Shown here: positions 1-3,814 of the stretch, one piece after another
Position numbering within the stretch: the first letter of the stretch is position 1
How the letters are laid out: the number at the start of each line of letters is the position of its first letter
DNA from: a virus
Length of the DNA stretch: 20,234 nt
Reading direction: 5' to 3' (one strand)
IMG/VR virus record: IMGVR_UViG_3300020467_000078
Coordinates: 1-20,234 of that record
The notes under the pieces: model-generated
What the model was told of the DNA's origin: nothing
The model's input: only the letters and a program-made list of their open reading frames with translations
The model's database searches: none
Program-made: the position numbers and the translations under genes

Positions 1-1136
1 CTAAATTTAATTGAGTCAGCCGCTATGTTGAAGAATTCGTTGCCCACACCTAACTGAGTTGCAATTAATTTTTTATTAGCCTCGTCCATGTTGGCAATTT
101 CTTCACCGTTTCTCGCTAGTGCTTGAATGAACATATCACTTGCACCAGGCACGCCGTCTCTCAATGCCGCGACTGCTTCTCGCACACCATTCACAGCAAA
201 GATACCTACTTGTTCACCACCTTCTGGGAATCCTTTTGCAAGTAGTCCTGTGACAGCATTAACCATTTCAGGAGCCGCCGCCTTGACCCTTACCATGGTT
301 GCTTCTATTTCATCATTCGAAATCAAACGTAATTCCCTCGCATCTGCCACCGCTTGGAGTTCCGCTTTAACTTGATCCCTTTGTAAACCAGTCAGTTTGG
401 ATAATTGATCCAAACGTAATAGATATTCTTGCGAACCAGTTACCAGTTGTTGGTTGGTCATTGATTGAGATCTACCTAATGTGGTTTGCAAAGTTACGTA
501 GTCCGCGAAACCTTCAGTAATATCTCCCATACTGAAGCCAAGTGCAGTTAAAGTCTGTCTAAAGTTGCTTTGTGTCAATCCTGTGATAATCTGATTAAAT
601 CTTCTTGCACCTACTTCTGCATCACCACCAAAGCCTGCAAGTGCCACATTGGTGCTTACAAGAGCCGTTGTTAACCTGTCAAGATCAACGCCGGCCTGAC
701 CTGCTGTAAACCTTAATCGACTCACGTTGTCCGAAGTATTGGCTCCAATGGTTGCCAATGTTCTAAATACATCAACGTTTTCAAACACAATAGCAGAAAG
801 GTTTGCAATGGCCTCAACCAACACTTTGTTGAAACCTGTCATAGAATATTTGACAGTTTCTAATCCTTGTATCAGACCATCTGCACCTTTGGTCACACTG
901 CTAAATCCAGTGCCAGCCGCGGATAAAAATTGATTGAAGTCTACCTGTTTCTTTTTGGCTTTTTCAGTCTCATCTCGGAGACCCATGAAAGACTTACGCA
1001 CCTTGTCCTGTGCGGCATTTCTAGCATTAGGGTCTAGTGATGCTAATATTTTTTGGGCAGTATCTTCCGTAGCAGGTCCTTTGCCTTTTGCAAGGTCACC
1101 TACTATTTTGTTTATTTCTGCTTCGTCTAATGCCAT
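1..1136 (-). CDS. Tail tape-measure-like protein (partial, C-terminus off the left edge)
   Basis: The minus-strand frame is open from an ATG at 1136 to the window edge, giving 378 codons with no stop. The first in-frame stop upstream of this ATG is at 1158-1160, and no other ATG lies between, so the start is secure. The N-terminus is charged (MALDEAEINKIVGDL, then a KAKKKQ stretch near residue 60). A long, mostly helical, Ala/Thr/Leu/Gln-rich body follows with few aromatics, as in tape-measure or virion structural proteins of marine T4-like phages. I recognise the style (for example DNVSRLR and LTGLQRDQVKAEL) but no catalytic motif. It lies divergently next to gene 26/51, the predicted tail assembly chaperone, which fits a tape-measure role because such chaperones act on that protein. 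The family call is inference; another large structural protein is possible. Confidence 0.6.
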   Translation of the reverse strand, partial: MALDEAEINKIVGDLAKGKGPATEDTAQKILASLDPNARNAAQDKVRKSFMGLRDETEKAKKKQVDFNQFLSAAGTGFSSVTKGADGLIQGLETVKYSMTGFNKVLVEAIANLSAIVFENVDVFRTLATIGANTSDNVSRLRFTAGQAGVDLDRLTTALVSTNVALAGFGGDAEVGARRFNQIITGLTQSNFRQTLTALGFSMGDITEGFADYVTLQTTLGRSQSMTNQQLVTGSQEYLLRLDQLSKLTGLQRDQVKAELQAVADARELRLISNDEIEATMVRVKAAAPEMVNAVTGLLAKGFPEGGEQVGIFAVNGVREAVAALRDGVPGASDMFIQALARNGEEIANMDEANKKLIATQLGVGNEFFNIAADSIKF

Positions 1137-1245: not shown

Positions 1246-2112
1246 ATGTCACAAGAACAAATAGGTACAAACACAAACCCACTTAAAAAATATTACAGAC
1301 AAGTTAAGCAATTCGTTAAACTGCCAAGCGGATACAAATTTTATCCTCAAGGAGCAATTGACGTGCCTCAATCGGGCGAGGTCGGTGTGTATCCTATGAC
1401 AGCAAAAGACGAAATGCTACTTAAAACTCCGGATGCATTGTTGAATGGCGAAGCGACTGTAACTGTGATACAAAGTTGTATACCAGCAATCAAGAATGCT
1501 TGGGCAATGCCTTCAATAGATTGTGATGCGGCATTGATGACAATCAGAATGGCAACTTACGGCAACAAGATGACAGTGCCAATCACAGTGCCTGGCACAA
1601 AGATTCAAAAAGACTTAGAACTGGATTTACAGGAAAGTCTAGCAGGCATACTTAATGCAAAATACAATGAAACGTTCTTGTATGAAAATATGGAGGTCAC
1701 GACAAAACCTTTGACATACAAAGAGTTCACTGAAAGTGCAATTCAGACATTTGAGCAACAAAGGATACAAAAAATTATAGATGACACCAAAATGAATGAT
1801 GAAGAGAAAGTCAAACAGTTTCAAATCACATTTAAAAAATTAACTGAATTAAGTGTGGGCATGGTGGCAAACACAATCAGTTCAATCAAAGTGGACGGAC
1901 AGGTGGTTACAGATGCCACACAAATAAAAGAATTCATAGATAACACCAGCAAGGCATTTTTCAATGCTATCATGGCACATCTAGAAAAGAACAGAGAAGC
2001 ATTTCAATTGACTCCTCAAAAAATTAAATCTACAGAGCAAGAAATTAAAGACGGGGCACCTGCCGAATATGAACTTCCAATAGCATTTGATTCCGCAAAT
2101 TTTTTCGCATAA
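1246..2112 (+). CDS. 26: gp26, baseplate hub / tail assembly chaperone (short form)
   Basis: This 288-aa protein is recognisable as the T4 gp26 / T4_baseplate family from its N-terminal third: the LPSGYKFYP segment (about residues 27-35), then YPMTAKDEMLLKTPDALLNG (about 49-68). The middle is helical and charged (residues ~130-260). In T4, gp26 is needed for hub/tail assembly; its position next to gene 51 and the tape measure suggests an assembly-chaperone role rather than a permanent virion part. The T4 protein is shorter (about 208 aa). The ATG at 1246 follows a weak GGAAA element. The gene ends NFFA-stop, and the codons for NFF form a -1 slippery run that opens into a gene-51-like frame (separate entries). 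The family call is firm. The chaperone role is inference. Confidence 0.88.
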   Translation: MSQEQIGTNTNPLKKYYRQVKQFVKLPSGYKFYPQGAIDVPQSGEVGVYPMTAKDEMLLKTPDALLNGEATVTVIQSCIPAIKNAWAMPSIDCDAALMTIRMATYGNKMTVPITVPGTKIQKDLELDLQESLAGILNAKYNETFLYENMEVTTKPLTYKEFTESAIQTFEQQRIQKIIDDTKMNDEEKVKQFQITFKKLTELSVGMVANTISSIKVDGQVVTDATQIKEFIDNTSKAFFNAIMAHLEKNREAFQLTPQKIKSTEQEIKDGAPAEYELPIAFDSANFFA

Positions 2113-2336
2113 AGATAGTTACACTCGACACATCTGAGATCATTAAACTTTCCAAAGAAATGGAAAATGAAATCAAAAATTTCAAAGCAGAACTGTTCAA
2201 GTTGGCTTGGTTCATGCGTGGAGGACTTACTCTGGAAGAAATTTATGCCAGCACACACGAAGACAGAGAAGTGATAGGTGGAGTGATCAAAGACAACCTG
2301 GACACAGCCAAAAAGACAGGACAACCGTTCTTTTAA
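2091..2336 (+). CDS. 51: gp51-like C-terminal segment, expressed as a gp26-gp51 -1 frameshift fusion
   Basis: The frame -1 to gene 26 is open from 2091 (preceding stop at 2088) to TAA 2334-2336. The predicted product, join(1246..2106, 2106..2336), is 363 aa: 287 gp26 residues plus 76 more. The tail is helical and acidic/basic, with FKAELFKLAWFMRGGLTLEE and an ending in DREVIGGVIKDNL...KTGQPFF. That resembles C-termini of gp51 (hub assembly catalyst) in T4-like phages. The only internal ATG (2160) has no Shine-Dalgarno, and protein-like sequence clearly continues upstream of it, which argues against a free-standing 58-aa gene. T4 gp51 is a separate protein of about 249 aa, so here it would be reduced and fused by recoding. 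Reading frame and slippery run are seen; homology and frameshifting are inferred. Confidence 0.68.
   Translation, partial: FRKFFRIKIVTLDTSEIIKLSKEMENEIKNFKAELFKLAWFMRGGLTLEEIYASTHEDREVIGGVIKDNLDTAKKTGQPFF
2097..2106 (+). promoter_or_regulatory. Predicted -1 programmed ribosomal frameshift site in gene 26
   Basis: The run AAATTTTTTC holds two overlapping canonical X-XXY-YYZ heptamers in the gene 26 frame: A-AAT-TTT (2097-2103) and T-TTT-TTC (2100-2106). It lies one sense codon before the gene 26 stop (2110-2112). The -1 frame is open from 2091 to 2336, so a slip here joins both frames. I see only weak downstream pairing (AAAG 2111-2114 with CTTT 2148-2151), so no strong stimulatory hairpin or pseudoknot can be claimed by eye. 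Confidence 0.72.
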
Positions 2337-3382: not shown

Positions 3383-3814
3383 CTATGTGGCCTTGTGTGT
3401 TTTCAATTCTTCTTTTAGGACTTTGGATCCGCCTACGCGAACGTTTATTATGCCATTGTAGTATTCGTCTGTCTCTAGCACTCTTCTGTCAAACTGTTCC
3501 TTGGCTTCCAAGTAACTCATTGTGCCTCTGTTGGTGCATATGTAAAGTATTTCCCTAGTAAATTTGTCTTCCCCTAGTGCCTTGACGTCAGCAACCAAAT
3601 GATCATTGGAACCCCAATAGTCTCTCCAGTCACTTTCGACTTTGCTTCTACGTTTGTTTATTCTTCCCTTGAGTGGTGGACGTGTCTTCTTGAATTTCGC
3701 CAGTTTCTTACCCACGTATTTCTTATCGTTGGTTGTATTTGTTATGAGATACACAAATCCTTCACAGTCTTCTGGCAGTTCTGTGATTGTGTTTCCCTTG
3801 TAAGTCCACTGCAT
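3383..3814 (-). CDS. GIY-YIG endonuclease (free-standing, homing-type)
   Basis: This 143-aa protein carries a GIY-YIG nuclease core: GFVYLITN (19-26) supplies the GIY strand and KKYVGKK (31-37) the YIG strand. YLEAKEQF (101-108) supplies the likely metal-binding glutamate and YYNGII (118-123) the conserved Asn. The SDWRDYWGSND segment (61-71) and FTREIL (85-90) are typical of the small GIY-YIG enzymes scattered through T4-like marine phages. It would nick or cut DNA, and related genes spread by homing. It is last in the gp55-47-46 operon, 18 nt after the small basic ORF. Its Shine-Dalgarno is weak. No intron core or split gene is visible around it, so it is treated as free-standing. The target site is unknown. 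Confidence 0.82.
   Translation of the reverse strand: MQWTYKGNTITELPEDCEGFVYLITNTTNDKKYVGKKLAKFKKTRPPLKGRINKRRSKVESDWRDYWGSNDHLVADVKALGEDKFTREILYICTNRGTMSYLEAKEQFDRRVLETDEYYNGIINVRVGGSKVLKEELKTHKAT

Follow-up and report, generated by a model that had tools for sequence, protein, structure and literature searches.

Short and long forms of a putative tail assembly chaperone are very probably produced by −1 frameshifting at the end of gene 26 in relatives of phage T4

The stretch of DNA analysed here (the window), 20,234 bases long, is a record from an uncultured virus and has T4-type baseplate genes. It carries a homologue of T4 gene 26 that starts at ATG 1246 and stops at TAA 2110-2112. The product belongs to the gp26/T4_baseplate family, with a score against PF12322 of 45.1 bits (gathering cut-off 24.5, E 1.2e-11). 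The features of this region are listed below.

3..1136, minus strand: divergent neighbor, the beginning of a virion protein of roughly 720 aa and candidate tape measure protein (full-length relative in locus L007)
1246..2112, plus strand: gene 26 homologue, short form (TAC-N), 288 aa; PF12322 / phrog_150
2091..2112, plus strand: overlap of the 0 frame with the open −1 frame, from the window sequence
2097..2103, plus strand: slippery heptamer A_AAT_TTT, found in the majority of marine relatives; sole heptamer of 5 loci
2100..2106, plus strand: slippery heptamer T_TTT_TTC, the main site; T_TTT_TT[C/T] in 96/101 loci
2106..2336, plus strand: −1 frame tail (TAC-C) of 76 aa and the TAA; counterpart of the T4 gp51 C-terminus
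2110..2172, plus strand: possible weak downstream RNA structure (stimulator), z = −1.63, not convincing in this sequence alone

The 3′ end of gene 26 (2095-2112) reads GCA AAT TTT TTC GCA TAA. The two heptamers overlap, both are in the X_XXY_YYZ phase of gene 26, and a single sense codon (GCA) separates the slip site from the TAA. The −1 frame is open from 2091 to 2333, with a TAA at 2334-2336. A slip at either heptamer would give the identical product, ...SANFF-RIK..., with 287 + 76 = 363 aa, as compared to 288 aa for the unshifted protein. The initial annotation had placed two in-phase heptamers at 2097-2106, one codon before the gene 26 stop, and had predicted a short form of 288 aa and a long form of 363 aa; the heptamers prove correct base for base, and the sizes agree with the window sequence. 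It was also right that the −1 tail lacks a usable start. The sole ATG, at 2160, is located 18 codons into the tail and has no Shine-Dalgarno core.

A scan for relatives found 80 uncultured contigs, whose gp26 is between 98% and about 31% identical to that of the window. Of these, 79 reach the end of gene 26, and all 79 have a heptamer there, with the −1 frame staying open past the stop. The full comparison covers 101 loci: 80 uncultured contigs (including the window), 16 cultured jumbo phages (including the RaK2-type and Atu_ph07/PA5oct lineages), the two cyanophages Syn9 and S-PM2, the pelagiphage HTVC008M, phiM12, and phiW-14. Over all loci the identity of gp26 to the window falls from 98% to about 24%. 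An in-frame heptamer near the gene end, located by a search of the 60 bases that precede the stop, is found in 101/101 loci (T_TTT_TTC in 92, T_TTT_TTT in 4, and A_AAT_TTT alone in 5). Every locus thus has the in-phase X_XXY_YYZ before the 0-frame stop that is expected of a programmed −1 frameshift of the tandem-slippage type. The comparison of gene 26/51 junctions in marine T4-like phages, which had been proposed as a check, therefore shows both a conserved slippery run and a conserved −1 tail.

This conservation is far above the background. Elsewhere in the gene, heptamers occur in frame at 6.6e-4 per codon, or in about 1.3% of 20-codon stretches (59 relatives), versus 101/101 at the gene end. 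Codon choice at the site is also constrained. Among 59 representatives that are less than 90% identical, TTT serves as the first Phe codon in 59/59 and TTC as the second in 51/55, compared to 64% TTT for Phe overall. Judged by these frequencies, the slip site and the −1 tail are not due to chance.

Homopolymer runs are prone to indel errors, and loss of a T, or decay of the gene, could in principle mimic the arrangement in the window. The same run and frame are, however, found in a contig of 98% identity that comes from a different sample, and they are kept in all other relatives, finished phage genomes included. An artifact or gene decay is refuted by this conservation, and we assign it virtually no probability. 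It is also highly improbable that the shift into the −1 frame arises during transcription, by the polymerase slipping on the T run, and not at the ribosome. The site does have a run of six T, which is extended to 7-8 T in 4/59 representatives, but six T is short for polymerase slippage. Moreover, another 4/59 representatives have only five T and yet the exact A_AAT_TTT, and the phase of the heptamer is fixed across all loci.

The end of the gp26 homologue in Rhodothermus phage RM378 (L124:1510-2390; NC_004735 about 25,794-26,670) reads TCC TTT TTT TGG ... TGA. The sole long downstream frame there is +1 (or −2), not −1, and the tail has no profile match. This frame may reflect a different frameshift, a sequencing error, or an unrelated sequence.

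The −1 tail is complete in 98 of the 99 loci that can be read through (those of L018 and L055 run off the contig ends), with a length of 59-80 aa. Substitutions in the tail fall on positions 1/2/3 of the −1 frame codons in numbers of 175/82/554, counted over 23 non-overlapping pairs of relatives, several of which come from closely related contigs and are not fully independent. In the stretch that follows the gene 26 stop and precedes any possible start, the corresponding numbers are 36/21/68. As this bias lies upstream of any start, that stretch is also under protein-level selection. By its pattern of substitution, the tail evolves as a −1 frame protein.

In one contig (L031:3800-3860) the tail is truncated. 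The sequence matches those of L030 and L032 through the slip site, and then most of the tail is missing, its middle having been lost relative to these two sisters. This is a local deletion, natural or from the assembly, that removes the C-terminal domain of the long form.

Public records present the tail differently. In S-PM2, Syn9, HTVC008M, phiM12 and many jumbo phages it is annotated as a small gene of its own, and in the records of the first four (L136/L137/L138/L140) this separate 'gp51' has its start placed inside the tail, so that the conserved N-terminal part is cut. If these annotations were correct, the tail would be the true gp51, translated from its own start or by reinitiation at the gene 26 stop. 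The ATG at 2160 in the window and an ATGA stop-start overlap in 5/59 representatives are consistent with such a gene. Against it, the tail of PA5oct has zero ATG, GTG or TTG, the first start lies beyond codon 20 in 18/59 representatives, and a near start with a Shine-Dalgarno-like core is found in only 3/59. In addition, the residues ahead of the first start are conserved as −1 frame protein, and independent initiation would not hold the heptamer fixed. We regard a separate gene as very unlikely. The downstream frame is under protein selection and lacks its own start, as expected of a frameshift extension. Two observations had been named in advance as arguing against frameshifting, an unconserved slippery run and a tail with a well-placed start and Shine-Dalgarno sequence; neither a loss of the run nor a consistent start of that kind is seen over the loci compared. 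As read from these sequences, the longer protein very probably arises when ribosomes move back by one base shortly before the end of gene 26.

The RNA signals around the site are modest. Folding of the region 3′ of the slip site, which the initial annotation had suggested, gives a weak result for the window itself, with a modest excess when the relatives are taken as a group. The mean z for the 59 relatives is −1.04 versus −0.24 in gene-body controls, and 25% versus 5% are below −2. Clear downstream hairpins are present in S-PM2, L027, L065, and Atu_ph07. An upstream Shine-Dalgarno-like stimulator is not enriched (5/59 representatives versus a background of 8.5%).

The structures of gp26 and the tail were predicted as separate chains. 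The AlphaFold2 model of gp26 (the short form) has a pLDDT of 88.9 and most closely resembles T4-like baseplate hub assembly proteins. No solved structure was found for gp26, either by sequence or by fold. The tail is predicted to be a confident helical domain (pLDDT 91.7); its fold was compared with viral models only. In a Foldseek search against viral models, the gp26 model (1246-2109) also matches proteins of about 500 aa from Erwinia Special G, phiEaH2, Ralstonia RSF1, and RP12 (E 1e-4 to 1e-7). These large-phage proteins are perhaps distant chaperone homologues.

The link to T4 is firmer than had been proposed. Both T4 gp26 and T4 gp51 match PF12322 and phrog_150, and they match each other (BLAST 2e-6; hhalign E 5e-10). 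T4 gp26 aligns to residues 17-203 of the 249 residues of gp51, which has about 46 residues further. On this sequence evidence, T4 gp26 and gp51 are paralogues, corresponding to the short and long forms. T4 gp26 terminates in GLKEFFELL, the same short-form end as GLxSFF of the cyanophages, but its FF codons are TTC TTT, and there is no slippery run. The last 46 residues of T4 gp51 are matched by the cyanophage −1 tails with an hhalign probability of 92%. The match between the cyanophage tails and those of the window type is weaker (55%), and the direct match between window-type tails and T4 gp51 tails is weak (8%), so that the link passes through the cyanophage tails. The whole window fusion is colinear with T4 gp51 across the junction (E 2e-4). 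The description of the tail as gp51-like thus holds for the last part of T4 gp51, by weak profile similarity, and extends no further: the tail alone gives no significant family match in the profile libraries searched. Cyanophage gp51 was noted earlier to lack the first ~200 residues of T4 gp51 (Sullivan et al. 2010, PMC3037559), and a frameshift extension would explain this. The T4 genes 26 and 51 are on opposite strands. T4 therefore appears to encode as two genes the short and long forms that its relatives would make from one gene by −1 frameshifting.

Taken with the conservation of the site, these comparisons give us high confidence that the product of gene 26 is a tail assembly chaperone with two forms, which share one start and differ by a −1 slip, and that T4 obtains the same pair by duplication. 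Most ribosomes would stop at 2110 and release the 288-aa short form. A minority, with AAT-TTT or TTT-TTC being decoded, would shift by −1 on AAATTTTTTC and continue to the 363-aa long form, with an extra helical C-terminal domain of 76 aa. The slip itself, its efficiency and the ratio of the two forms are inferred, as are the chaperone function and the binding to the tape measure protein. On the model of lambda G/GT, the tape measure protein would be coated by numerous short copies together with a few long ones, and these would bring in subunits of the tail tube or hub. In T4, the short form would come from gene 26 and the long form from gene 51. T4 gp51 is needed for assembly yet absent from the finished particle (PMC3004832).

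The G/GT-style interpretation offered by the initial annotation gains support from the nested forms with a common N domain, from the conservation of the site, and from the T4 paralogue pair. As in lambda gpG/gpGT, one gene would give nested short and long forms by a −1 slip near its stop, with a small C-terminal domain added. The lambda heptamer is G_GGA_AAG, however, unlike those of the window, and the N domain is larger in the window type (about 285 aa) than in gpG (about 140 aa). No sequence or fold similarity was detected between the lambda proteins and the window chaperone. The gp26 model does not match significantly the solved HK97 chaperone 2ob9 of the lambda-type fold (E 5.4), and the claim is therefore that the window protein works like G/GT, not that it is a proven homologue of lambda G. 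T4 gp26/gp51 (PF12322, phrog_150, phrog_634) is the closer comparison, with a homologous short form, the C-terminal extension in the same position, and the same pair of products; it differs in having two genes on opposite strands and having lost the slippery run, whereas the window and the other relatives have a single frameshifted gene. Phage Adele and the Vandenendeviridae/Andersonviridae (PMC12846349) share with the window a −1 slip at a poly-T motif, conserved close to where TAC-N ends, and a tail mis-annotated as a separate hypothetical gene. Their motif is GTTTTT and they belong to a different phage lineage.

Frameshifting in T4-like chaperones has already been described and is not new in kind. 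Vladimirov and colleagues are said to have found it conserved in several T4-like groups, with the group of T4 itself using separate genes. Vladimirov, Gautam and Davidson 2022 (Virology 566:9-15; doi 10.1016/j.virol.2021.11.003) identified the tail assembly chaperones of T4-like phages. A 2025 article (PMC12846349), in a passage on TAC-N genes of T4-like phages, cites them for poly-T −1 frameshift signals, and they are also cited in PMC10274946. The present finding therefore belongs to a known class; apart from that study and the papers citing it, no other description was found in the literature searched. The chances seem to us evenly balanced that a single ancestral poly-U −1 frameshift underlies the cyanophages, pelagiphages, rhizobial T4-like phages, RaK2-type and Atu_ph07/PA5oct jumbo phages, and uncultured marine lineages, and that it was lost once, on the T4 branch, with the gene duplication. 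Its extension to the jumbo phages and to these marine lineages may be unreported. Cyanophage genes annotated as a tiny 'gp51', like the small hypothetical genes that follow gp26 in jumbo phages, probably represent extensions made by frameshifting and not genes in their own right, and such annotations could be widely corrected.

The neighbors of the chaperone gene were compared with the order tail tube, chaperone, tape measure of G/GT-type systems. The divergent neighbor in the window (3..1136, minus strand) has weak similarity to RaK2 ORF088 and no family match in a profile search; its identity as the tape measure protein is unproven. In HTVC008M and phiM12, the tail tube gene is directly upstream of the chaperone. 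Further along the window, a 143-aa ORF at 3383-3814 (minus strand) matches phrog_447, labelled NAD synthetase, as well as several homing endonuclease families, and the NAD synthetase label looks doubtful. In S-PM2, a 1167-aa virion-type protein is located downstream of the chaperone. This large protein, S-PM2p209 (L146:57-3557), contains a Phage_lysozyme2 domain and an apparent NAD:arginine ADP-ribosyltransferase domain (PF01129, 1.3e-5).
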